Source: Thiobacillus denitrificans DSM 12475 (lineage in GTDB: Bacteria > Pseudomonadota > Gammaproteobacteria > Burkholderiales > Thiobacillaceae). Taken from it: a stretch of DNA of 64,000 nt. The notes below the pieces were generated by a model. The model saw only the letters and a list, made by a program, of their open reading frames with translations, did not search any database and was not told where the DNA came from. This document shows, piece by piece, positions 2,373 to 27,894 of the stretch. The translations under genes and the position numbers were made by a program. The stretch covers positions 1 through 64,000 of the forward strand of contig NZ_AQWL01000005.1 in the NCBI RefSeq assembly GCF_000376425.1, given 5' to 3'. Numbering within the stretch: the stretch's first letter is position 1; each line of letters begins with the position of its first letter.

Positions 2373-2704
2373 GGACGCAGCTCGCCTGTCCGTTGCGGCC
2401 TGTGGCGTTATGTGCCGGTGGACAGATAGACTTCGGAATGAAATCCGATGCTCTGGCTGTTGATAGATGTGCTTGGCTCGCTTTGGATCACCCGCAACGG
2501 CCTGCGTTGACCAGGCCGAAGACTTGAGTCCACAATCGAGTCCATTCCGTGACGCCTGGATCGGAAAAAACGTTCGTAATAAACGAGTTAGCGACCGGGT
2601 GCTGTTCCCTTCGCCCGCTCCAGAAACACGTCATCCGCAGCCTTAATGCCGGACCGGCTTCGGCTCAACAATTTCCTCCCTTTGGCCGTTATTGCAGCAA
2701 GGCC
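2373..2704 (+). other. Intergenic region upstream of first DUF1631 gene
   Basis: 332 bases between LysR and the first DUF1631 gene. No gene or RNA is recognisable. The DUF1631 frame is open back to an ATG at 2549, but residues encoded before 2705 do not look like family sequence. In contrast to the second DUF1631 gene, I see no GEMM-type aptamer here. Confidence 0.5.
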
Positions 2705-4789
2705 ATGAATACCCAGTCCACAGTTTCCGCTCCTGTCGCCCTGCTACGCGAAGCCGATGCGCGCATGGCGCAGGCGCTGGACAACTTTTTTCAGCGCAGC
2801 CGTATTCCAATCCAGGACGCCATTTTGCGCGCCGTAGCGGCACAGCCGACACCGTCGACCATGGCGATCGGGCAAACCTGCCTGGATTGGCTCAACGCGC
2901 ACCCTGACGTGCTGTCCACGGCGTTTGCCGAGCAGTTCCGCCACCATCTCGCCCGGCCCGAGACATTTACCCGGCGCCATGACAGCCGCCCGGCCGAACT
3001 GCAACTGCTGGACGACGACATGCTCAAGCGGCAGCTGGCGGAGGCAAAGACCGCGGCCCTGCTGACCGACCCCCTGCGCGCCGAGATGCTGCTGCTGTTC
3101 GGTCGCATACAGGCATTGCAGCGAGCGGCATCGGAAGATCCGGGCCATGCTGACGGCTACGGCCCGCTTCAGGTCATGCGTGCCTTGTCGCGCGCACTCG
3201 ATGCACAGGGGATCGACTCCCCGTGCGGCACTTTCCTGCTCCAGTGTGTGACCGCTCCTCTGCTTGACACGCTGAAGCATACATACGCGGCACTGAATCA
3301 GTTTCTGGAGACGCAGGGCATTCAGGGACTGTTCGTCCCCTCCACGCCCCCTGCTCCCTTCACGGATCCTGCCCCCGCCTCACCGCAGAGAACCACGACC
3401 GATGCCGGAGAGAAGGTTCTGACACACATTCGGTCGATTGCCGCGCGTGCAAGTGAAACCGCCTCTTCCGGCGCGCCCTCTTCCGCAGGTGCCCCGCCAT
3501 TCCCCGACATGCCGCACCGGCTGGTTGACCGCCTGGCGGACTGGCCGGCCGCTCTGTCACCGCTCCCGGGCGCCCCGCAGACGGGTGAAGCGGCCGCGCC
3601 GCTGCTGCGGCAATTGCAGCAGAAGGTACGCCATAGCGGAACGGGCGCATTTGACCTTGCAGTCCTGGATGCCCTGGCGGGGCTGTTCGAATACATCCTT
3701 GACGACCCCGGCATATCGCCGCGTTACAAGGCCGAAATTGCCCACCTGCAAATCCCGGCGCTCAGGGTCGCGCTCGTCTCGCCCGATTTTTTCAGTGACG
3801 ACGGCCATCCGGCACGCCAGTTGATTGATCTGCTGGGATTGTTCTCGCGCCGTTTTCCCGAACACGATCCCTCGCACCTGCTCGCACTCGAACAAATCCA
3901 GGCCGCCTGCGCCGCTATCCACAGCGACCCTGATCACGCTACCGAGACATTTGCGCATGCGCACGGTAGGCTGGCCACCTGGCTGGCCGACGCCGACACA
4001 CATCTCAAATCCGGGCTGGTTCCGGATGTCATGCATCTGGAGCAGATCGAACGCCAGGAACTGGGCACCCTGCTGGCGCTGGAAAACCTGCATGACCTGA
4101 CCGAGCGCCATCCTGCCCCGGAATCGGTATTGCGGCGGCTGGAAAACGCCTGGGTACCCCACATGGCGTCGCTGTATGTAGCCGAAGCAGGCGAAGGCCC
4201 TGACTGGCGGGCCGCCTGCGCGACGTTGCTGCAGCTTTTTCTCAGCCTGCAGGCGCCCGACGACGATGCCGCGCGCGAACTCCGCCTGCAATCGATTCCC
4301 CGCATCAACGCCGAATTGCGCCGCGGCTTGCTGGCGCAAGGTGCCGCCCCCGCCCAACTGAAAGACTTTTTCAGCGCCATCACCATGACCCAGGAATCCT
4401 GGATCCGTCCCGCCGGCGGTCAGCAGAACGCCGTGGCCAGCCCGTTTGTACCCGCGCATGTTTCACGGGCAGGAATCGAATCGCTTACCCGCCAGTTGCC
4501 GGCCACGCCCCCGAATGACCCCATCCTGAAGCAGGCCCAGCAACTGCTGGAAGGTGACTGGGTGGATTTCGATCCGCCATTCGAGGGGCTGGCGATCGCG
4601 CGCGTGGCCTGGGTCGGCGTGCACGGCTATCTGCTGTTTTGCGACCGCGAGGGCGAACAGCGTTTTTCACTCGATTGCGCCCGGCTCGCAGCGGAAATCC
4701 GTGCCGGACACGCGCAGATTCCGGAGCAGTCGCTCACGCGCAAGGCCATGCTGCGCCTCAAAATGCAGCTATCGGACGATTCCGGCTGA
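2705..4789 (+). CDS. DUF1631 family protein, paralogue 1
   Basis: About 694 residues from ATG 2705 (MNTQSTVSAP), preceded by a weak AGCAAGG. The protein is largely helical and probably cytoplasmic; no signal peptide or membrane segment is seen. The conserved C-terminal segment (GDWVDFDPP, then RVAWVGVHGYLLFCDREG) matches the C-terminus of the next gene (GDWVEFHYDD, RLGWVSGIRNTYLFSDQDG), which suggests a small beta domain resembling PilZ/YcgR folds. The middle Ala/Pro-rich stretch (around residues 210-290) looks like a linker. The function of DUF1631 proteins is not established. The paralogue downstream lies behind a c-di-GMP riboswitch, so a role in that network is a fair inference. Confidence 0.85.
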   Translation: MNTQSTVSAPVALLREADARMAQALDNFFQRSRIPIQDAILRAVAAQPTPSTMAIGQTCLDWLNAHPDVLSTAFAEQFRHHLARPETFTRRHDSRPAELQLLDDDMLKRQLAEAKTAALLTDPLRAEMLLLFGRIQALQRAASEDPGHADGYGPLQVMRALSRALDAQGIDSPCGTFLLQCVTAPLLDTLKHTYAALNQFLETQGIQGLFVPSTPPAPFTDPAPASPQRTTTDAGEKVLTHIRSIAARASETASSGAPSSAGAPPFPDMPHRLVDRLADWPAALSPLPGAPQTGEAAAPLLRQLQQKVRHSGTGAFDLAVLDALAGLFEYILDDPGISPRYKAEIAHLQIPALRVALVSPDFFSDDGHPARQLIDLLGLFSRRFPEHDPSHLLALEQIQAACAAIHSDPDHATETFAHAHGRLATWLADADTHLKSGLVPDVMHLEQIERQELGTLLALENLHDLTERHPAPESVLRRLENAWVPHMASLYVAEAGEGPDWRAACATLLQLFLSLQAPDDDAARELRLQSIPRINAELRRGLLAQGAAPAQLKDFFSAITMTQESWIRPAGGQQNAVASPFVPAHVSRAGIESLTRQLPATPPNDPILKQAQQLLEGDWVDFDPPFEGLAIARVAWVGVHGYLLFCDREGEQRFSLDCARLAAEIRAGHAQIPEQSLTRKAMLRLKMQLSDDSG

Positions 4790-4869
4790 ATTTACAATCT
4801 GGACACTCAAGTTTCTCCCCGGCCGGCCGATAAACCAGTTATGCGGTTGTGCGTCTAAGTACAGGCACA

Positions 4870-5000
4870 GTCGCCGACCACGAACAGGGCAAGCCCGCGC
4901 GAGACGGGGACGAAAGTTTCCGGTCTCGATATCCATGCCTTTCAGGGATTTCCCCACTGGCAGTCGAGACAGCGGGACCACCGGCAACCATCCGGTCATG
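4870..5000 (+). promoter_or_regulatory. Cyclic-di-GMP-I (GEMM) riboswitch
   Basis: The region follows the GEMM-I consensus in order. It has CCACGAACAGGGCAAGCC (4878-4895), then a hairpin CCCGC/GACGGG capped by the GNRA tetraloop GCGA (4899-4902), then GGGACGAAAG (4907-4916) and TTTCCGG. A long second hairpin is closed by GTCTCGA (4923-4929) pairing with TCGAGAC (4964-4970). The 3' segment AGCGGGACCACCG (4971-4983) matches 10 of 13 bases of the Vibrio Vc2 aptamer segment as I remember it. A possible expression platform: GGTCA (4994-4998) can pair with TGACC (5045-5049) beside the downstream ribosome binding site. No intrinsic terminator is obvious, so translational control is likelier. Confidence 0.85.
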
Positions 5001-5050
5001 CCCATTTCCCCGTTCCTGGCCGGCCAGCCGCCGATACCGCGAGGTGACCC

Positions 5051-7267
5051 ATGGAGCGCGAGATGCCGGATAATTCAGTCGTAGTTAACCTCAATCAATT
5101 CGAACGTACACGCCGCGCGCAGGTCTCGAGCGAGATCCTGTCGATTCTGCATGGCAGCCGCGACCTGTTGATCGAGGGCGTGGCCCGCGTGCTGACACGG
5201 CAAGCCGAAGCGATGGAAAACACCCTGCTGGCGATGGCCGATCGTACGCCGCTGCTGGATACACGCAATACTTACTATGCTGCCCAGAGCATCCTCAACA
5301 AACAGACCAATGAATTGCTGAGCGCATGCAAGGAAGCGTATTGCCAGGCTTTCAGCAATTTCTCCCACAACCGCGAGAAAGCTGCCGGCAGCGAATTGAT
5401 GGAATTGTCGCTGGTGGACGACCATGATTTTGAGATCACTCTGGCGGTCGACAAAGCCACCTCGCGTCTGCGTTACAACTGCGCCGAAGAGCTGGTCGCC
5501 CTGGATGCCCGCATCGCCCACCTGCTGGGCCGCACGGATCTGTCCGAGAACGACAACCCGCTCGGTCCGCGTGCGCTATGCGAAGCGCTGCTGGACGGCA
5601 TCGCCAGCATGCAGCCGCAACAGGGTACACGGATCGTGCTGTTGAACCAGTTCGATCTGGTGCTGACCACGGAACTTGCCCACCTCTACCAGTCCATCAA
5701 CCGTTTTCTGATCGACCATGGCATCCTGCCGGATCTCAAGATCGGGACGAAAAACCGCACGCAGAATACTGCCGCCACCGCAACTGGCACCACCTCGGCC
5801 AGCGCCCCCCCTGCCACGCAGGGCCAGACCGGCGGCGACATGTTCAGGCTGTTCGAGCAACTGGCCGGAGGCAGCGGACACGCATCGGCAGGGGCCGGAG
5901 GCTACGCTGGCGCACCCGCGGCTTTCGCCGGATTCAACCTGCTCGATTCGCTCGGCCAACTGCAATCCGGCACCATGATGCTGCCCGGCGGCGGTCGTTT
6001 CGAGCTGCCGCTGCTGGAAGCCGCCACCGTGCACAACGTGCTGCGCAGCCTGCAGCAAAGCCCGGTGATGCAGGCTGCAAGCCCACTCGATGCGGTTCTG
6101 GTGGATGCGGTCGCCATGCTGTTCGATGTGGTATTCGACGACGCCTCCATCCCCGACCGCCTCAAGGCGCAAATCGCGCGGCTACAGATTCCGGTGCTGA
6201 AGGCGGCCATGCTGGACTCCAACTTCTTCTCGCAGCAGAATCATCCGGTGCGCCGCATGCTGGATGCGATCGCCACGCTTGCCGTGCACCTGTCCGACAA
6301 CGAGGCAGGCAATGCCAGGCTGGAAACCATCTCACAGGTGGTCAGCCGGGTACTCGACAGCTTCGAGCAGGACATCGCCATATTCGATTCCGCTGCCACG
6401 GAGCTGGAAGCAATAAGCGCCACTCTGGACGACACGCTGGAAAAAACGGTGGACGCCAGCCTGCAGGAGGATATTGCCCGGATCAGGCAATCCGAGCGTA
6501 CCGAGCTTGCCCCCGTCATCGTCCACGATTTCATCAACCGCGCGCTCAGGGATCAACCGGTGGCGGATGCCGTGCGTGAATTCCTGCGGCGCGACTGGGC
6601 GCAGTTGCTGACCATGGATTATGTCGACGCAGGCGAGCAGGGCGCGCATTTCAACAGCCACGTCGAAACCATGCGCGAACTGGTGTGGAGCGTGCAGCCC
6701 AAGGCTGACATGGATGCGCGCCTGATGCTGGTACGCATTCTGCCCGGCTTGCTGAAACGCCTGCGCGAAGGCACCGCAGAAATCGCCCTGCCGCAAAAGC
6801 TGTCCGACCGCTTTTTCGCCACCCTGGTCATTCTGCACGCCAATGCAGTGCGTCCCAACGCCCAGCCAGTGCCACTGCCCGAAATCACGCCAGAAGAAAT
6901 CGAAGCGCTGACGCCTGCCCCTGTGGCCGATACCGTCGCAGCACGCGTTTCCGAAGCCGAACCCGCGGTCCCCGAAGTGGAAGACGAGTTCAGCTTGCGC
7001 GCCCGCGCCTTGAACAAAGGCGACTGGGTGGAGTTCCATTACGACGATGGCACTTTCCGCTGGGCACGTCTGGGCTGGGTCAGTGGTATCCGCAACACCT
7101 ATCTGTTCTCGGATCAGGACGGCATGAACAGCTTCTCCATCGGCCTGCACCGTCTGGCCGACAAACTGCGGCGCGGCGAAGCAGTGCTGGTCGAACGCAA
7201 ATCCATCACCGAATCGGCATTCGGCAAGTTGATGAATCTATTCCGCCAGAAACTCAACCACGCCTGA
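5051..7267 (+). CDS. DUF1631 family protein, paralogue 2, behind a c-di-GMP riboswitch
   Basis: 738 residues from ATG 5051, with GAGGTG at 5041-5046 as ribosome binding site; ATG 5063 is an alternative. Like the first paralogue it is helical, with a Gly/Ala-rich linker (about residues 240-310) and a C-terminal small domain (GDWVEFHYDDGTFRWARLGWV, then FSIGLHRLADKL). It shares with paralogue 1 a block near the middle: LDAVAMLFDVVFDDASIP here against LDALAGLFEYILDDPGIS there. Placement directly after a GEMM-I aptamer implies that its synthesis responds to c-di-GMP. Function is unknown; motility, surface attachment or a c-di-GMP effector role are inferences only. Confidence 0.9.
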   Translation: MEREMPDNSVVVNLNQFERTRRAQVSSEILSILHGSRDLLIEGVARVLTRQAEAMENTLLAMADRTPLLDTRNTYYAAQSILNKQTNELLSACKEAYCQAFSNFSHNREKAAGSELMELSLVDDHDFEITLAVDKATSRLRYNCAEELVALDARIAHLLGRTDLSENDNPLGPRALCEALLDGIASMQPQQGTRIVLLNQFDLVLTTELAHLYQSINRFLIDHGILPDLKIGTKNRTQNTAATATGTTSASAPPATQGQTGGDMFRLFEQLAGGSGHASAGAGGYAGAPAAFAGFNLLDSLGQLQSGTMMLPGGGRFELPLLEAATVHNVLRSLQQSPVMQAASPLDAVLVDAVAMLFDVVFDDASIPDRLKAQIARLQIPVLKAAMLDSNFFSQQNHPVRRMLDAIATLAVHLSDNEAGNARLETISQVVSRVLDSFEQDIAIFDSAATELEAISATLDDTLEKTVDASLQEDIARIRQSERTELAPVIVHDFINRALRDQPVADAVREFLRRDWAQLLTMDYVDAGEQGAHFNSHVETMRELVWSVQPKADMDARLMLVRILPGLLKRLREGTAEIALPQKLSDRFFATLVILHANAVRPNAQPVPLPEITPEEIEALTPAPVADTVAARVSEAEPAVPEVEDEFSLRARALNKGDWVEFHYDDGTFRWARLGWVSGIRNTYLFSDQDGMNSFSIGLHRLADKLRRGEAVLVERKSITESAFGKLMNLFRQKLNHA

Positions 7268-17554: not shown

Positions 17555-19771
17555 TTATGCCCGCGATCCGGCGGCAATGGCAGCCGGCACCATCGGCTCA
17601 ACGCCACTGTGCAGAACGGAAGCGACAGCGCCCGCCGACAATTCCAGCCGGTACAGATGGAGCATTCCCAGGCCGGTCAGAATGGTTTCATGCGCTGCAG
17701 TCTTTGCATGCAGGGTACGCAGACCTGTCCTGCCATGCGCCTGAATGACATGGCGGCAACCCGGATCGAGCGGCCGGTTCACCAACAGCCGGGGCTCCCC
17801 CTTTTCGCCAGCGTGTGCGCTGACCAGCCCGACCAGACAGCGATCTGCGCGAGCAACATTGGCGGAGACCTCACAGCTGACCCAATAACCGATGGGTTCG
17901 GACGGTGCTTGCGGCGCGTCGACCAGCCCCATACGTTGCAGCGGGGTTGGGCTGTCGTCACGGTATCGATTGATCCGCCATTGCGCATCCGAACCATACA
18001 AGAACTGTTCGATGCGCTGGGTCACGGACAGGGGCATCGCATGGAATGTGCCGCCGATGGCGCGCACATACGCTTGTTCTCCCTTTCCCGCATGCATCAA
18101 GGTGCGGATTTCCAGCTCCGCATCCAACTCGCCATCGGGCAGATACAGGGTGACAGCCACCCTGTCGCCGACCTTCGCCTGCCTCAGCACGCCATAAAAG
18201 CTCATCCCGCTGGGCGACAGGTCGTCCACCGTTCCCAACACGCCATCCAGACGCGCCGCCAGCGGCAGGGCAAAACGATATTCGTTGCGCCGGTTAACCC
18301 CGCGCGCGGCAGTGAAGCGCACCACCAGCACGGCCAGCCAGGTGTTGACCGTGGCCCACACCACATTTGCCCACATGCCGTCCTTTGGCAAATGGCCATA
18401 GAAATAGAACAGCGCGATGCCCACCGGGATGGCAAGCGTATTGAGCCCCATCACGGCCAGCTGAGGCAGCAGAAAGCCCAAGCTGAGCGCATGCTCTCCC
18501 TGCTTCTTGGCCGTCACCCCGAAACGCTTGCGCATCTTGAACACGCCCAGCGTCGACCAGGCGAAGCTGGCAAAGCGCGCCATGTTGTACTGCTCGATCA
18601 TCAGGCTGCGCCCGTAACCGCGCGATATCTCCTCGAACGCCAGGAAATTGACCAGGTAGTACGGCACGAAATGCAGCAGGAACACCCAGCCATCGACGGC
18701 GATCGGCATGGCGCCCGCCATCAGCACATAAACCGGCGCAAAGTAGAAAAACATCTTTTGCCAGCCGTCAAAATAGGCCAGTACGGTAGCCAGGTAATTC
18801 AGCCGCTGCGGCAGCGTCAGCCCACGGGAAAACAGGATGCCCTCCTTGCGCCAGACGTTCATCGCGCCCACCCCCCAGCGCACGCGCTGCTTGAGAAAAG
18901 GTTCGATTTTGGCGGGCGCCACGCCATAGGCCAGCGACTCGTCGTGATAGACGGAACGGTAGCCTTTCTTGTGCAGCAGCAGACTGGTGTGAAGGTCCTC
19001 GGTCACCGTGCCTGTCGCAAATCCGCCAATGGAGTCAAGCGACTGACGCCGGATCACCGCGCAGCTGCCGCAATAAAACGCCGCATTCCAGTAATCCTTG
19101 CCGCGCTGGATCACCCGGAAAAACAGCGACTGTTCGGACCAGGCGACCCGGCTGCCAGGGTCGGTGCGGTTCTGAAACGAGTCCAGGTTGTAGAAGTCCT
19201 GCGGTGTTTGCACAAACGCCACACTGGGGTCGGAAAAATAACCCAGCGTCTTCAGCAGAAAATCCTGACGCGGCGCATGATCGGCGTCGAAGGTCGCGAT
19301 CAGGTCCGCCGTGCTGTGCGGCAATGCATGGTTGAGATTGCCTGCCTTGGCATGCGCATTATCGGTTCGTGCCAGGTAACGCACGCCGAGCGATTGCGCC
19401 ATCTCGCGCATCGCCTCGCGGTTGCCGTCGTCCAGAATCCAGGTTTCGTGCGGATACTTCATTGCCCGCGCCGCCAGCGCGGTGCGCCGCACCATCTCGA
19501 CATCCTCGTTGTAGGTCGGGATGAACACATCCACCTTGAGCCCCAGGACGGGCGACGGCGCGGTGCGCTCGGACAGACGCCAGGTCATGAAGATGTTCAG
19601 AACGGCAGTGAAAAACCCGAACACCTCGGCGCCATACAGCAGCCAGGAAAAGACCGGATGCGCCGCATTGAACGTCTCCAAGCGCCAGTTCAAATACCAG
19701 GCGCCAATAGCAAGAAACAGCAGAACCACGGCTTGCCTGGCGGGTTGGAGTGAGCGATATTGCGGTTTCAT
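17555..19771 (-). CDS. Cellulose-synthase-like GT2 glycosyltransferase with PilZ domain
   Basis: About 738 residues from ATG 19771 (MKPQYRSLQPARQ); the frame is open upstream but that part is low-complexity antisense of the next gene. Two N-terminal membrane helices precede a GT2 domain with LDDG, TFDADHAP (DxD), TVTEDLHTS (TED) and QRVRWG (QxxRW), then more membrane helices. A PilZ domain follows near residues 494-520, with RRNEYRFAL (RxxxR) and DLSPSGMSF (D/NxSxxG), so c-di-GMP should activate the enzyme. It resembles BcsA, but no bcsB, bcsC or bcsZ lies nearby; the polymer may be cellulose or another beta-glycan. Confidence 0.92.
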   Translation of the reverse strand: MKPQYRSLQPARQAVVLLFLAIGAWYLNWRLETFNAAHPVFSWLLYGAEVFGFFTAVLNIFMTWRLSERTAPSPVLGLKVDVFIPTYNEDVEMVRRTALAARAMKYPHETWILDDGNREAMREMAQSLGVRYLARTDNAHAKAGNLNHALPHSTADLIATFDADHAPRQDFLLKTLGYFSDPSVAFVQTPQDFYNLDSFQNRTDPGSRVAWSEQSLFFRVIQRGKDYWNAAFYCGSCAVIRRQSLDSIGGFATGTVTEDLHTSLLLHKKGYRSVYHDESLAYGVAPAKIEPFLKQRVRWGVGAMNVWRKEGILFSRGLTLPQRLNYLATVLAYFDGWQKMFFYFAPVYVLMAGAMPIAVDGWVFLLHFVPYYLVNFLAFEEISRGYGRSLMIEQYNMARFASFAWSTLGVFKMRKRFGVTAKKQGEHALSLGFLLPQLAVMGLNTLAIPVGIALFYFYGHLPKDGMWANVVWATVNTWLAVLVVRFTAARGVNRRNEYRFALPLAARLDGVLGTVDDLSPSGMSFYGVLRQAKVGDRVAVTLYLPDGELDAELEIRTLMHAGKGEQAYVRAIGGTFHAMPLSVTQRIEQFLYGSDAQWRINRYRDDSPTPLQRMGLVDAPQAPSEPIGYWVSCEVSANVARADRCLVGLVSAHAGEKGEPRLLVNRPLDPGCRHVIQAHGRTGLRTLHAKTAAHETILTGLGMLHLYRLELSAGAVASVLHSGVEPMVPAAIAAGSRA

Positions 19772-19855
19772 ATCCTGTGCCTCATGTTGCGATGGACATA
19801 TGCACAGCAAAACCCGTACCACACTTTCTACGTACCGCCGATCGCCACTCACGCC

Positions 19856-20278
19856 ATGCCCTACCCTACCCCTGAAGCCGCCGAAACCGCGTTCTACGCC
19901 GCCTTCGAGGCACGCTCGCTGGGCGCCATGATGGACGTCTGGGCCAGCGACGACAGCATCGTCTGCATCCACCCCCTGGCCGCCCCATTGAACGGACGTG
20001 CCGCCGTGGCGGCCGGGTGGCGCAGCATGTTCGAGGCCGCCGGCCAGTTCCGCGTGCAGGTCGAGGCCGCCCACCAGATACGCGAAGCCACGCAGGTCGT
20101 TCGCATCGTCCGCGAATATCTCGTCATCGGCCAGGAGACCGAGCCGCGCCCTCCCATCCTCGCAACCAATGTCTACCGCAAGGACGCCGACGGCTGGCGC
20201 ATGGTGCTGCACCATGCCTCGCCGCTCCAGGTAGGCGGCACACCGCCGTCACGCACGCCGCCCGTGGTCCTGCATTAA
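19856..20278 (+). CDS. NTF2/SnoaL-like protein
   Basis: 140 residues from ATG 19856 (MPYPTPEAAETAFYAAFEARSL). The N-terminal helix pair and following strands (WASDDSIVCIHPLA, LNGRAAVAAGW, FRVQVEAA, YLVIG, ATNVYRKDADGWRMVLHHAS) follow the SnoaL/nuclear-transport-factor-2 fold. No catalytic residue can be proposed. It is divergent from the GT2 gene, 84 bases apart, and lies 13 bases before the hydrolase gene, with which it is probably co-transcribed. Confidence 0.85.
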   Translation: MPYPTPEAAETAFYAAFEARSLGAMMDVWASDDSIVCIHPLAAPLNGRAAVAAGWRSMFEAAGQFRVQVEAAHQIREATQVVRIVREYLVIGQETEPRPPILATNVYRKDADGWRMVLHHASPLQVGGTPPSRTPPVVLH

Positions 20279-22688: not shown

Positions 22689-23684
22689 GTGCCGGTGCAG
22701 AAAGGCGGCGCGATTCACGTCCGGATCAACATGGACTGCGCACCCGGCGGCATGGCATTGCTGACGCCGGGCGGCAGCTTGGCCTGGGGGCGCTGTCATT
22801 TCGACTTCAACCCGAAGCCCGGGGGCCGCACGGATTTCAGCGTCGTGCTGGGCAATATGCGCCCGTACGACCGCTTCATCGCTGCACCGCAGAACACCCT
22901 GTTCATCGCTGGGGAACCGCTGTCGAAGAAGCTGTACCCGCAGGCGTTCTACCGGCAGTTCGGCCATGTCGTCGACAGCCACGCCGAGTCACGCCATCCC
23001 CATCTGCACGTGAGTGCGCTCGGGCTCAACTGGCACGTCGGGCTCGATCGGCGTTCCAACAGCTATCGCTACGGCTACGACCATTTATCCACGCTGGCCT
23101 GCCCGGAGAAGCAGAACCGCATCGCCGTGGTGTGCTCCAATGCCAGCAGGACCGAAGGCCAGCGCCAGCGACTGACTCTGCTCGAAGGACTGAAACAGCG
23201 CCTGGGCGACCGGCTGGTGCATTTCGGGCGCGGTTTCGAGCCCATCGACGACAAGATGGACGGCATCCTGCCTTACCGCTTTCATCTGGTGCTTGAAAAC
23301 AGCGTGCTGCCCAACTACTGGACCGAAAAGCTCGCCGACGCCTGCCTGGGCTGGGCCTACCCGGTTTATCTCGGCTGCCCGAACGTGGGGGATTACCTGC
23401 CCGCTGAAGCGCTGCTGTCGATCAATGATCTGGATGTGGACACAGCGGCTGCGCGGATTACCGAACTGCTGGACCAGCCGCTCGATCCGCAGCGCCAGGC
23501 CGCGCTCGCCGAGGCCAGGCGCCGCGTGCTGAACGTCTACAACCCCTTCGCCTGGGCGGCGCACTGGGCCGAGCAATTGTATCGCCCGGATTGTGCTGAA
23601 AAGACGCTGACGCTGCGCTCGCACAAGGCTTTCCGCAGTTTCCCGCGCGGCCATCTGTTCCGGGTGCGCAAGGCGCTGGCCTGA
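22689..23684 (+). CDS. GT10 (fucosyltransferase-like) glycosyltransferase A
   Basis: About 331 residues from GTG 22689, five bases after the mutase stop. The C-terminal half carries the GT10 signature of alpha-1,3/4-fucosyltransferases: LPYRFHLVLENSVLPNYWTEKLADACLGWAYPVYLGCPNVGDYLP. The N-terminal part (about 1-150) is the acceptor domain. No signal peptide is seen, so it is cytoplasmic and would modify lipid-linked or LPS sugar. It faces a second GT10 gene with only 15 bases between the stop codons. Confidence 0.9.
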   Translation: MPVQKGGAIHVRINMDCAPGGMALLTPGGSLAWGRCHFDFNPKPGGRTDFSVVLGNMRPYDRFIAAPQNTLFIAGEPLSKKLYPQAFYRQFGHVVDSHAESRHPHLHVSALGLNWHVGLDRRSNSYRYGYDHLSTLACPEKQNRIAVVCSNASRTEGQRQRLTLLEGLKQRLGDRLVHFGRGFEPIDDKMDGILPYRFHLVLENSVLPNYWTEKLADACLGWAYPVYLGCPNVGDYLPAEALLSINDLDVDTAAARITELLDQPLDPQRQAALAEARRRVLNVYNPFAWAAHWAEQLYRPDCAEKTLTLRSHKAFRSFPRGHLFRVRKALA

Positions 23685-23699
23685 GCGCGGGCCGAGCGT

Positions 23700-24776
23700 T
23701 CAGTCTCCCGCCAGACGGCGGCGGGCGCGCACGTAGCCTTTTTCCAGTCCGTAGCGCAGCCCCGGCAGCAGTTGCCGGTGCAGGCGACGGCGGCTCTGGA
23801 TAAGGGAGGGTGAGGCAGGCAGGGCGCGGCCGGCGGCGTGTCTTTCGTTGACCAGTCGCACCACGGTGGCAATCGGACCATATTCTTCCAGCACGCGGCG
23901 GCGGCTCTCCAGAATCGCGGGTAGGTTCTTTTCCCACAGCCTGTCGCGGATCGCGTGCTGGATGGTCTCGGCGGCGCCATCGACATCGGCGATGTCGATG
24001 CGGATGAAGCTCTCCGGCGGAAAGTAATCCTCGGCGTTAGGGCAGCCGTAATAGACCGGCATGCACGCACCGAGGAAGGGGTCGGCGAGCTTTTCCGTCC
24101 AGTGGTGCGGCCCCAGGTGGTTTTCGATCGCCAGGTGGTAGCGGTAGGGGTCGAGGGCGTCGGCCTTGTCGACCAGCGGGCGCACGCCGTGGCCGTAGAT
24201 TTCCATGAACGGCAGCCGGGCCTTGAGCGCCTGGGTGAAGTCGTAGCGCATGCGGTGCAGGGTATGTCCCTGCCGCTTGCTGGAGCAGACCGTCGACAGG
24301 TCGGCAGTCTTTTCCAGTGGAACATGCGAGACCAGGGTATCGTAGTCGCCGCGCGGCGAAGTGGTGGCGTAAAACCAGATCAGCGCGGGCTGCTGAAAAA
24401 TCAGGCCCCTGTGCCTGCCCGTCGCCCATGGCTCCTGCGTGGTCAGCAGCCAGTTGAACTGGCGCAGGTAGGTTCTGCCGTAGGTCTTGATCGAAGACGG
24501 CTCGACGGTGATCAGCAGGGTGTTTTCAGGCGGGCAGGCCAGCTCTTCCACCCACAGCGGATGGCGCTCGCCGGCCAGCGAAGGCAGATCGTCGTAGACC
24601 ACCAGCCAGTCGTAGTCGCGGCAGTCGCGGTCGAAAATGAAGTCGCAGTTTCCCCAGCGCGGCTGCCTGCCGGGAAAGCATTTCAGCCAGCCCTCGCCGT
24701 CGTGGCCGGGTTTGAACTTGCCGAGGAACTTGATTCGCAGCCGCGGCGGTGGGGTCGGCAGGTCGCTGATGGACAT
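23700..24776 (-). CDS. GT10 (fucosyltransferase-like) glycosyltransferase B
   Basis: 358 residues. It shares the GT10 core with the facing gene (PYRYHLAIENHLGPHHWTEKLADPFLGACMPVYYGCPNAEDYFPPESFI) but has a different N-terminal half (LRIKFLGKFKPGHDGEGWLKCF) and an Arg-rich C-terminal tail (QSRRRLHRQLLPGLRYGLEKGYVRARRR) that may bind membrane. The two are related but not recent duplicates. It starts directly downstream of the GT25 stop codon on the same strand, so it is the last gene of the minus-strand glycan operon. Confidence 0.9.
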   Translation of the reverse strand: MSISDLPTPPPRLRIKFLGKFKPGHDGEGWLKCFPGRQPRWGNCDFIFDRDCRDYDWLVVYDDLPSLAGERHPLWVEELACPPENTLLITVEPSSIKTYGRTYLRQFNWLLTTQEPWATGRHRGLIFQQPALIWFYATTSPRGDYDTLVSHVPLEKTADLSTVCSSKRQGHTLHRMRYDFTQALKARLPFMEIYGHGVRPLVDKADALDPYRYHLAIENHLGPHHWTEKLADPFLGACMPVYYGCPNAEDYFPPESFIRIDIADVDGAAETIQHAIRDRLWEKNLPAILESRRRVLEEYGPIATVVRLVNERHAAGRALPASPSLIQSRRRLHRQLLPGLRYGLEKGYVRARRRLAGD

Positions 24777-25616
24777 TCAGAATCCGCGCAGTTGCTTGAT
24801 CAGTCCGCGCAGCCCGTCGCGCGGCTCGGCCAGCCGGTATCCCGCCCAGCGCAGTTTTCCGAGCAACCAGTAAGCCAGCGCGCCGTAGCGTGGGTCGGGC
24901 ACATGGGTGGCGTGCACCCGACTGGTTCGGCGTTGGGTGATGTCTGAAAAGCCGACCTGCTGGTTGATGATGGAAGGCGACACGGCGCACACTTTGAAAC
25001 GGCGCGCCAGATTGCGGTAATACCAGCGGTCGATGGCACGATGACGGCTGATCCACGACCAAACGTCCCCTTCTCTTGGGAGGCGCTGCAACAGCCAATC
25101 GAAAGTGCTCTCTTTAAGCACATAGGCATGTGCGGTATTGCACCCTGCAACGGCACACAGCCTGTGTCCGGCCGGCAAAGCAGCCAGAGTGCGGTAGGGC
25201 GAAACAGGATCGGTAAATCCCAGATAGCAGACGTCCCAGTCGCTGTCTTTCAGGGCCTGGGGCAGTTCTGCCGCCACTGCGGCCAGCGCCGGTTCGAGTT
25301 CGATGTCGTCTTCCAGGATCAGCACCGTGCGCCAACCCTGTTGACGCGCGTAGGCGATCGCCGCACGGTGAGAAAGTGCACAGCCGGCGCGCCCGGCCCA
25401 GGTCTTGTCGCGCTTGCGACCACGAAACCAGGGAGGCACCCCGAAGCCGGGCAGGGCCGCACCCAGCGTGGCAGGCAGCCGGTGCAGCTTGTGCGCGGGA
25501 ATGAATCCGGCCGTCCTCATCTGCACGTCCTGCCAGCGGTCGGGGCGGCTGTCGAGGTTGACCACCAGGACGCCGTCGATCATGTCCCAGAAGGCGCCGA
25601 GCTGGGGCTGCGGCAT
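24777..25616 (-). CDS. GT25-family LPS glycosyltransferase
   Basis: About 279 residues from ATG 25616 (MPQPQLGAFWDMIDGVLVVNLDSRPDRW), overlapping the stop of the upstream gene by one base (TGATG), which implies translational coupling. GT25 features: VVNLDSRPDRW at the N-terminus, GCALSHRAAIAYARQQGW, and the acidic metal-binding LILEDDIEL. GT25 enzymes add galactose or glucose to LPS core. The frame is open upstream of ATG 25616, but that part overlaps the neighbouring gene and is not real. Confidence 0.9.
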   Translation of the reverse strand: MPQPQLGAFWDMIDGVLVVNLDSRPDRWQDVQMRTAGFIPAHKLHRLPATLGAALPGFGVPPWFRGRKRDKTWAGRAGCALSHRAAIAYARQQGWRTVLILEDDIELEPALAAVAAELPQALKDSDWDVCYLGFTDPVSPYRTLAALPAGHRLCAVAGCNTAHAYVLKESTFDWLLQRLPREGDVWSWISRHRAIDRWYYRNLARRFKVCAVSPSIINQQVGFSDITQRRTSRVHATHVPDPRYGALAYWLLGKLRWAGYRLAEPRDGLRGLIKQLRGF

Positions 25617-26368
25617 CACAGCTTCCAGTAATCGGCGATCCACGGCGCGGGCAGTGTACGGTGGTGCAGCTTGCGCCCTCGATACCCGCGGATGGCCTCG
25701 TCCGGATCGGGGCGGCCATGGAACACCAGAATCCGGCAGCCCTCGGGCAGCTGCGGCGCGCGGAACAGGTTGAGCGGAAAAGCCGGACGGCAGTTCCACT
25801 TGTAGCTCTTGACCCATTCCTCCGGCCACCACTGCGGATTGCCCATGGCGTAGGTCAGAAAGGCCTGCTCGGTATTGAAGGCCGCGCGATCCTCGGCGCG
25901 GTGCATTTCGCGCAGGAAGGTTTCGTAGGCATGGCCGGACTTGCCGGCTTCGAAGCGGAAGACCGATGAGTTGCCTACCGCCGGGCGCCGCCCCAGCATG
26001 GCCTTACGCCAGTGCACCCAGTTGTGGATGATGCAGAATTCGCCCGGCTTGTAGTCGAAGAAGCCGTCGATCGGCCCGGTGATCGCCACATCCAGATCGA
26101 GGAACAGTGTCGGCCCCTGCAGGTCGCCGAAACCATCCTGCAGGATCGCCAGCTTGACCAGAATGTCGGGCCAGCCGCGCTTGACGCCGGGGTTGGCGGG
26201 AAACGGGATGATTTCCACGCCCGCGTCCAGCCCGCTGGGGTCGTCCGTGCAGCAGAAGAACCGGAACGGCCGGCTCAGGTTGCGGCCAACGGCGCGATAA
26301 AGCATGTTGACGTAATGTGGGCCATAGCGGGTGCCCCATTTGAGGCAAAGGACGTTTACGTGTTGCAT
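25616..26368 (-). CDS. Glycosyltransferase, GT8-like fold
   Basis: 250 residues (MQHVNVLCLKWGTRYGPHYVNMLYRAV). The DxD metal-binding motif is in TLFLDLDVAITG, preceded by the acceptor/donor region RGWPDILVKLAIL and followed by NSSVFRFEAGK and LVFHGRPDP. The pattern recalls GT8-related LPS glycosyltransferases. Sugar specificity is not visible. It heads the minus-strand operon with GT25 and GT10-B. Confidence 0.82.
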   Translation of the reverse strand: MQHVNVLCLKWGTRYGPHYVNMLYRAVGRNLSRPFRFFCCTDDPSGLDAGVEIIPFPANPGVKRGWPDILVKLAILQDGFGDLQGPTLFLDLDVAITGPIDGFFDYKPGEFCIIHNWVHWRKAMLGRRPAVGNSSVFRFEAGKSGHAYETFLREMHRAEDRAAFNTEQAFLTYAMGNPQWWPEEWVKSYKWNCRPAFPLNLFRAPQLPEGCRILVFHGRPDPDEAIRGYRGRKLHHRTLPAPWIADYWKL

Positions 26369-26715
26369 TGAAGCCTTAGTCTTTCCGGAAGCGTTGATAC
26401 GCAGGTGCGGTAGGCCCCGGCAAAGCCATCAAACAGCACTCGCCGTCCCTGCCGGGTGGGTGCGACACCCGGATAATCGGCACCGGATTCAATATTTTCC
26501 AAGTTGCCTTGACAATTCGACGTCTGACATCAGCGTGCTGGACCACACGTATTTTACCAAGACATTGCAGTACGTTTTCCAGGCTCTTCGCGCAAGAGGA
26601 GTGATTAATTTCCCCCGTCAGAAAAGCTAACTGACTTGTTCGGGTATAAATTGGAAGCTGGGCTTTTTTCTGGAATGGAAGCGGTGCTTGCAGGATGCGC
26701 CCTTCTGCGGGAAGC
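26369..26715. other. AT-richer intergenic region in glycan cluster
   Basis: 347 bases between the O-antigen ligase stop and the next glycosyltransferase start, both on the minus strand. Local composition is clearly more AT-rich than the flanks. A promoter for the downstream three-gene operon must lie here, but no box stands out. No gene is supported on either strand. Confidence 0.5.
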
Positions 26716-27894
26716 CTAACTTGCACTCGTGTGCGTGAGACGTTCGTTCAGCGTGTAGCAGCCGATCCCCGTGACGAGAACCCAGACCCCCCTGAAATGC
26801 GTGGAATCCAGGATGGAGTATTCGAGCGTGCCCGCCAGCACACTGGCGGCGAGCACGGCGAGCGCCAGCCGCGCTGCGGGATGGCCACGGCGATACAGCC
26901 GATACGCCAGTAGCGCAATTGACGCCAGCACGCCCGTCAGCGCGACCAGGCCGCTGCTGATAGCCAGGTCGAGCCACATGTTGTGCGGTGCGTTCACGAC
27001 ATGGCCGGGAAGGTGCTCGTAGGCGCCAATTCCCCAGCCGAGCCACGGCGCCTGGCGAATCTGTTCCAGCGTAAACGAAATGATCTGCATGCGCGTGTTG
27101 TCACTCTGCATCGTAGCGTGCTGCACGCCTGCGCTAACGTATAGGTAGACCATGGCGGCCAGGGTCGCCCCGCCCAGATAAACAAGCAGTCGCGCCCGGC
27201 TCACGGGCGGGAACAGCACTGCGAATCCTGCGGCGACGGTGAGGATCGCGCCGCGGGAGCCCGATGCCCACACGCCGAGCAGCGCAGCGATCAACAGCGC
27301 CCAGAGCAACGGGCGGCGCGGCGGGTTGCGCAGCAGTCCGGCGGAAAGAATGGCGGTCAGGGCCATGAACATGCCGAATGGATTGGGGTTGAACACAAGC
27401 CCGTTGATGCGCAACTCGCGCCAATGCGTCAGGCTTGCATCCGGCGTGGTGAGCAGGTCGATCAAACCGGCGCCGGCATGGATCGCCAACGCGCAGAGCA
27501 GCGCGAAGATAGCGGAATGCAGGCTCAGCCATCCGCGCTGGAGAAGCACGACGAGGCCAAGGCCGATGCCGAGCATGCGCAGCACGAGCACCGGCAACTC
27601 GTGCCAGCCCGGCGCGGTGGCGACCCCCAGCGCATGTTGCAGGCTGGCGGTCAGCAGAACCGGGGTCAACCAGAGCGCGGTACACAGCAGATAGGTCCGC
27701 ATCGCGGGGCTGCGCCAATCCTCACGGCGCGCAAAACCCGCCGCGAGGGCCAGGACAAGCCCCGCGATATGCAAGCTTGCCCATTTCGCAGGCAGACTCA
27801 GGGCGAAAACGAACAGCAGGAAAAACGCCGCCAGGGACGCTTTGGTCGTGCCCGCCCATTCCAGCGGGGAGGCGTGTAACCGGAGTGTCTGCAC
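26716..27894 (-). CDS. O-antigen ligase/polymerase (Wzy_C family)
   Basis: 392 residues with about 10-12 hydrophobic helices. The Wzy_C features are present: NGLVFNPNPFGMFMALTAIL, WASGSRGAILTV, a large periplasmic loop (TRMQIISFTLEQIRQAPWLGWGIGAYE) and the conserved His in NAPHNMWLDLAISSGL. The protein would join polymerised O-antigen to lipid A-core, or polymerise it. It sits at the head of the minus-strand glycan region, which supports the call; ligase and polymerase cannot be told apart here. Confidence 0.9.
   Translation of the reverse strand: MQTLRLHASPLEWAGTTKASLAAFFLLFVFALSLPAKWASLHIAGLVLALAAGFARREDWRSPAMRTYLLCTALWLTPVLLTASLQHALGVATAPGWHELPVLVLRMLGIGLGLVVLLQRGWLSLHSAIFALLCALAIHAGAGLIDLLTTPDASLTHWRELRINGLVFNPNPFGMFMALTAILSAGLLRNPPRRPLLWALLIAALLGVWASGSRGAILTVAAGFAVLFPPVSRARLLVYLGGATLAAMVYLYVSAGVQHATMQSDNTRMQIISFTLEQIRQAPWLGWGIGAYEHLPGHVVNAPHNMWLDLAISSGLVALTGVLASIALLAYRLYRRGHPAARLALAVLAASVLAGTLEYSILDSTHFRGVWVLVTGIGCYTLNERLTHTSAS

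Follow-up and report, generated by a model that had tools for sequence, protein, structure and literature searches.

The window analysed here, a stretch of 64,000 nucleotides at the beginning of contig 5 of the 3.6-Mb genome of Thiobacillus denitrificans DSM 12475, carries two tandem DUF1631 genes separated by a gap of 261 bases, and the leader under study lies inside this gap. The features are listed below (P0-P5 are RNA pairings; A1 is an alignment of 52 leaders, window included).

2549..4789, plus strand: DUF1631 paralogue, upstream copy (PF07793, E 1.9e-73).
4807..4833, plus strand: candidate sigma-28 (FliA)-type promoter, TCAAGTTT-N11-GCCGATAA, the sole exact match in the genome and conserved in relatives.
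4843..4874, plus strand: P0 hairpin before the aptamer (covariation in A1).
4878..4986, plus strand: class-I c-di-GMP (GEMM-I) aptamer, eroded copy (scores of RF03167, RF01051 and model R2).
4893..4908, plus strand: P2 hairpin, capped by a GCGA (GNRA) tetraloop and lacking one base compared with relatives (sequence, A1 and residue table).
4923..4970, plus strand: P3 outer helix GTCTCGA/TCGAGAC, a perfect 7-bp inverted repeat (4923-4929 with 4964-4970).
4981..4997, plus strand: putative P4 anti-sequestor, formed by CCGG of the P1 3' strand and CCGG(U) and competing with P1 and P5 (swap test).
4994..5001, plus strand: P5 5' arm, GGUCAUGC (pair count and swap test).
5039..5050, plus strand: P5 3' arm, comprising the GAGG ribosome binding site and UGACC and reaching up to the start codon (pair count and swap test).
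5051..7267, plus strand: DUF1631 gene, predicted riboswitch target (738 aa, PF07793, E 1.2e-173).

The assignment of the second gene to DUF1631, previously made from its letters, was thus confirmed by Pfam, and a search with this protein returned 38 loci, 26 of them under the names Thiobacillus or Hydrogenophilales. A PilZ-type C-terminal domain of DUF1631 was considered and rejected, since sequence searches of A3 gave DUF1631 for 28 of 28 members and PilZ for none; the other matches of A3 members were three single weak ones, with PilZ among none of them. Comparison of DUF1631 with solved structures gave no convincing match.

The scan of the window with Rfam at gathering thresholds yielded 0 matches. 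With an E-value threshold instead, the leader scored 32.2 bits with RF03167 (c-di-GMP-I-GGC; gathering threshold 59; E 4.6e-6 for 271 bases; positions 4879-4986) and the window copy 29.3 bits with RF01051 (c-di-GMP-I; gathering threshold 35; genome-wide E 0.0013; positions 4878-4985), scores that are borderline when taken alone. Model R2, a covariance model trained on 48 orthologous leaders with the window excluded, recognised the window leader at 60.3 bits (E 1.1e-12, the E-values of such models being rough), which rules out a chance resemblance; model R1 was set aside because P2 was misplaced in its automatic structure. The same model R2 gave 83.1-106.3 bits for 11 related leaders, all of them its own training members and favoured for that reason, and 52.0-63.8 bits for six DUF1631 leaders from other families. 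Within the genus, RF01051 was found above its cut-off in 54 of 57 genomes, and an above-threshold RF01051 aptamer precedes the DUF1631 coding match by 61-74 bases in 31 of the 34 Thiobacillus genomes with an orthologue, the three exceptions being the window genome (below the cut-off), G011 and G015. In the covariance search that the sequence-only reading had named as its check, the window copy therefore remained below both thresholds, whereas the orthologues passed, so the low score is attributed to erosion and not to a false match. On sequence comparison, the window aptamer can be regarded with confidence as orthologous to those of its relatives, and as eroded. The proposed c-di-GMP-I class and its target gene both stand; control by the ligand is a prediction.

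Four other leaders (L022, L035, L053 and L056) retain the DUF1631 gene and the upstream box (L035 by eye) and have lost the aptamer or keep a remnant of it, with model R2 scores of 28.7, 20.7 and 16.1 bits for L022, L056 and L053, respectively, and no match for L035. A tRNA gene lies upstream of each of the four within the stretch searched, and none has an Rfam-detectable aptamer; the loss may accompany a changed neighbourhood, perhaps in one clade.

All the GEMM-I blocks previously pointed out in the window leader were found, namely the GCGA hairpin at 4893-4908, ACG-AAAG, the 7-bp second hairpin, AGCGGG...ACCG, GGTCA and TGACC. The ACG-AAAG block is present but does not form an intact core, as had been supposed, since it corresponds to a damaged ACGCAAAG with C46 deleted. 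This base is missing in the window only (49 of the other 51 leaders of A1 have C and 2 another base), position 25 is G instead of the conserved A in the window and in one other row of A1, and P2 and P1 are each one base short, the P1 loss being common to L016. The residues G20, G21, C22, A23, C44, G45, A47-A49, G83, C92 and C93-G14 are retained in the window, with residue numbers mapped onto the leader by our own alignment. According to the available text of PMC4744006 and PMC3764141, G20, A47 and C92 are ligand contacts and C44-G83 is an interhelical pair. The three contacts, this pair and the GNRA tetraloop are therefore kept in the window copy, whereas A25 and C46, the partner of G21, are both altered.

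The secondary structure of the leader was evaluated on the 52 leaders of A1. The named structure has 89.1% of its cells paired, against 34-48% in slid controls, and its covariation score of 0.170 (0.139 in shuffles) was equalled by 0 of 500 shuffles. Changes on both sides were found in 16 pairs, a number reached by 4 of 500 shuffles and also by the slid control +2, with far fewer paired cells. In P0, 87% of the cells of the upper helix and 91% of those of the lower helix are paired, with both-side changes in 6 of 6 and 1 of 4 pairs, respectively, and P3 overall shows such changes in 6 of 12 pairs. For P5 (GGUCA/UGACC), 78% of the cells are paired, with both-side changes in 2 of 6 pairs. A swap test, in which 46 of the 52 leaders were used (L022, L053, L056 and L068-L070 were excluded, yet kept in the pair count) and which removes relatedness only in part, gave own-leader means of -8.03 kcal/mol for P5 (-7.45 when swapped) and -6.46 kcal/mol for P4 (-5.82 when swapped), with 0 of 200 shuffles as good in either case; the control pair showed no effect (96 of 200 shuffles as good). 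The pairing of GGTCA (4994-4998) with TGACC (5045-5049) at the ribosome binding site, proposed earlier from the window alone, is thus supported by the relatives. The GGUC segment is common to P4 and P5, and the P1 3' strand is common to P4 and P1, so that closing of P1 should favour the sequestor P5. A terminator platform was set aside because a scan of 4780-5080 revealed no terminator-like site, which favours a translational mode. The single-sequence fold of the window leader contains neither the aptamer nor either switch state, and it is not unusually stable (z -0.75).

A promoter-like box begins about 70 bases upstream of the aptamer, and nowhere else in 3.6 Mb is there an exact match to its pattern TMAAGTTT-N11-GCCGATAA, which we take to be the sigma-28 (FliA) consensus. 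Both elements are present in 51 of the 52 leaders, with a spacer of 11 bases in 32 of them and of 12 in 19, the sequence of the spacer being variable, and a similar box is kept in the aptamer-less L035 (by eye). Two FliA/WhiG homologues above the curated cut-off are encoded in the genome, and a sigma-70-type promoter was set aside because no sigma-70-like site was found in 4780-5080. Genome-wide, the FliA pattern was not enriched, either with up to 3 mismatches (33 matches, 38 for the reversed control) or in relaxed form (13 matches, 10 for the control). A gene that looks like cheY (by eye) has the box with two mismatches, and a clear box was found at neither of the two flagellin-domain genes of the genome. 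Two short genes (L235 and L236), whose products we take by eye to be DUF4124-like exported proteins, have TMAAG...GCCGTTA boxes upstream.

The spread of this arrangement was studied in 300 genomes sampled across the order. RF01051 was above cut-off in 113 of them, and DUF1631 was located downstream of 41 of 90 RF01051 loci examined (the 30 first given and 60 further rows taken down the listing, some rows being skipped). Promoters were rated with our own score (maximum 13.2) within 250 bases upstream, L145 and L160 being excluded because the position of the aptamer, in a truncated contig, is uncertain. At 10.5, the strictest of four thresholds, a FliA-type box was found at 18 of 40 DUF1631 loci versus 1 of 48 other GEMM-I loci (Fisher p 6e-7, ignoring relatedness and the choice of threshold), the controls at the DUF1631 loci giving 2/40 for the reverse strand and 1/40 for downstream sequence. 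A box of this score is absent at the other 22 DUF1631 loci. With a threshold of 9.0, the values were 29/40 and 9/48, with controls of 8/40 and 10/40.

DUF1631 itself was found in 126 of the 300 genomes. Among the listed DUF1631 genes, GEMM-I lies within 700 bases upstream of at least 34 of the 44 with 560 bits or more and upstream of at least 5 of the 58 with lower scores, and it precedes at least 39 genes in at least 11 families. These counts are lower bounds, in which the aptamer places of G000 and G036 were added from the genus search and the DUF1631 rows G339 and G085, added out of order, were scored as misses. The seven listed genes of family f22 with 560 bits or more had GEMM-I before none of them. 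Since GEMM-I occurs mostly at high-scoring DUF1631 genes and at none of these seven, the link marks one DUF1631 subfamily. FliA was present (by eye) in 33 of the 39 genomes with GEMM-I before DUF1631 and was not found at the search threshold in the other 6, so DUF1631 is not strictly tied to FliA. The proportion of loci with the promoter did not differ significantly between genomes with FliA (17/34) and without it (1/6; p 0.2, FliA presence by eye).

Of the GEMM-I loci in the genus, 31 were compared (L001 and L076-L105). Ten lead DUF1631, each with its box 80-83 bases upstream of the core of the aptamer, and 20 others have a recognisable core, 17 of them with a FliA-like box at 44-48 bases; 8 of these 20 were flagged as S8-like by a crude motif. 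No core was recognisable in L095. The best GEMM-I of the genome (60.8 bits, above the RF01051 threshold; L001 1501-1577, G000:C4:332718-332794, minus strand) precedes an S8 subtilase gene.

Altogether, the leader is best explained, with a probability of about 0.6, as a translational OFF switch on DUF1631 that would be transcribed by FliA and controlled by c-di-GMP, the ligand, the direction of switching and the use of the promoter by FliA being predicted. FliA, active during flagellum building, would produce the transcript. At low c-di-GMP, the P1 3' strand would pair with CCGGU to form P4 and occupy GGUC, leaving the ribosome binding site free, and DUF1631 would be made. When c-di-GMP is bound, P1 would close and P4 would open, and the released GGUCA would pair with UGACC over the Shine-Dalgarno/start region (P5), which would stop translation. 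DUF1631 is therefore predicted to be made in motile cells with low c-di-GMP.

The strongest competing view, to which we give somewhat less than an even chance, is that in this species the riboswitch has decayed and lost ligand binding, the leader being constitutive or locked and the switch working only in relatives; it is restricted to the window copy and partly coincides with the OFF-switch model, which describes the leader type. The deleted C46, the A25G change and the one-base losses in P1 and P2 point in this direction, as do the gap between 60.3 bits and the scores of the 11 relatives (favoured as training-set members) and the loss or near loss of the aptamer in four other leaders. On the other hand, the window copy still has its direct contacts to the ligand, the GNRA tetraloop and the P4/P5 platform, with an intact promoter-like box and ribosome binding site. 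The chance that it is functional despite its erosion is put at about even. A change of ligand, to 3',3'-cGAMP or to that of the c-di-GMP-I-GGC variant, is very improbable. It would fit the higher scores of RF03167 than of RF01051 for the window and for 5 of 6 Thiobacillus-type leaders scanned, five related leaders (not the window copy) reaching the RF03167 gathering threshold of 59 bits. However, in the RF03167 model A47 of RF01051 is replaced by G (the letters GGC presumably name positions 20, 47 and 92), whereas A47 is present in 51 of the 52 leaders, window included; G20A is a mark of cGAMP binders, and G20 is present in all 52.

The direction of switching and the identity of the box also admit other explanations. 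Sequence alone gives no direction, and the window leader folds at minimum energy into neither state, as would be compatible with a translational ON switch in which the ligand-closed P1 opens the ribosome binding site through another pairing; this is unlikely considering that P4 competes with P1 for the 3' strand of the latter and with P5 for GGUC, an arrangement in which closure of P1 should favour the sequestor. It is equally doubtful that the box is some other conserved element and that DUF1631 lies outside the flagellar regulon. The lack of genome-wide enrichment, the flagellin-domain genes without a clear box and the six genomes that have the switch and no FliA at the search threshold speak for such an element, but they are outweighed by the conservation, in 51 of 52 leaders, of both parts across a variable 11/12-base spacer, the excess of boxes at DUF1631 loci over other GEMM-I loci in the order and, within the genus, a box of similar type at most of the GEMM-I loci examined that do not lead DUF1631. 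The box upstream of the aptamer is thus probably a FliA promoter.

As regards known systems, the leader shares with RF01051 (Vc1/Vc2 of Vibrio cholerae) the P1/P2/P3 architecture, the GNRA tetraloop, G20, A47, C92 and C44-G83, and differs from it in that the window copy is below threshold and has C46 and A25 altered; a DUF1631 target and a FliA-type promoter are unreported for RF01051 systems in the papers found. Among Rfam families, the window and five of the six Thiobacillus-type leaders scanned score highest with RF03167, A47 being the point of difference. According to the available text of PMC4744006, Cd1 is a GEMM off-switch before the flagellar operon of C. difficile. Both share an OFF logic linked to flagellar genes, predicted in the present case, but Cd1 belongs to the leader of a Firmicute flagellar operon, whereas here a single DUF gene follows a predicted translational platform. 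A search for literature on GEMM-I with FliA/sigma28, Thiobacillus or betaproteobacteria, which left subscription papers mostly outside, gave no link to DUF1631; such a link may nevertheless have been noted before, e.g. among listed GEMM targets. In the available text of the literature found, DUF1631 is named in tables only, in one list alongside chemotaxis receptors (PMC10455584).

The window leader is a real class-I c-di-GMP aptamer, worn here and well kept in relatives. The RNA itself belongs to a known class, and it is its wiring (promoter, switch and DUF1631) that is of interest; the FliA-type promoter, the competing helix of the P1 strand and the spread through the order go beyond the sequence-only reading. 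The conserved riboswitch and promoter give DUF1631 a testable place, as a late flagellar gene that c-di-GMP would switch off, and their recurrence in related bacteria hints at its role. As a tentative proposal, somewhat less probable than decay of the window copy, DUF1631 could be a missing part of the motile-to-sessile decision, read through an AND-NOT gate (FliA active, c-di-GMP low) and acting in motility or surface release, with the S8 protease gene, which has a box of the same kind, in the same programme; this covers the riboswitch-linked DUF1631 subfamily across the order, and the gate lies within one leader. The intact, eroded and lost aptamers of related leaders constitute a natural series for riboswitch decay.

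Other c-di-GMP genes had been suggested in the window. The domain scan agreed with the GGDEF-EAL enzyme, whereas no degenerate EAL protein was detected among the 34 window ORFs scanned (a subset of the window genes), and at E 0.001 PilZ was not detected in the product of the gene described as a PilZ glycosyltransferase (17555-20215). This product is a glycosyltransferase family 2 protein similar to cellulose synthase. The region 22689-27894 encodes an O-antigen ligase and two glycosyltransferases of family 10, together with a family-25 match that stays under its cut-off, and probably corresponds to surface-polysaccharide genes.
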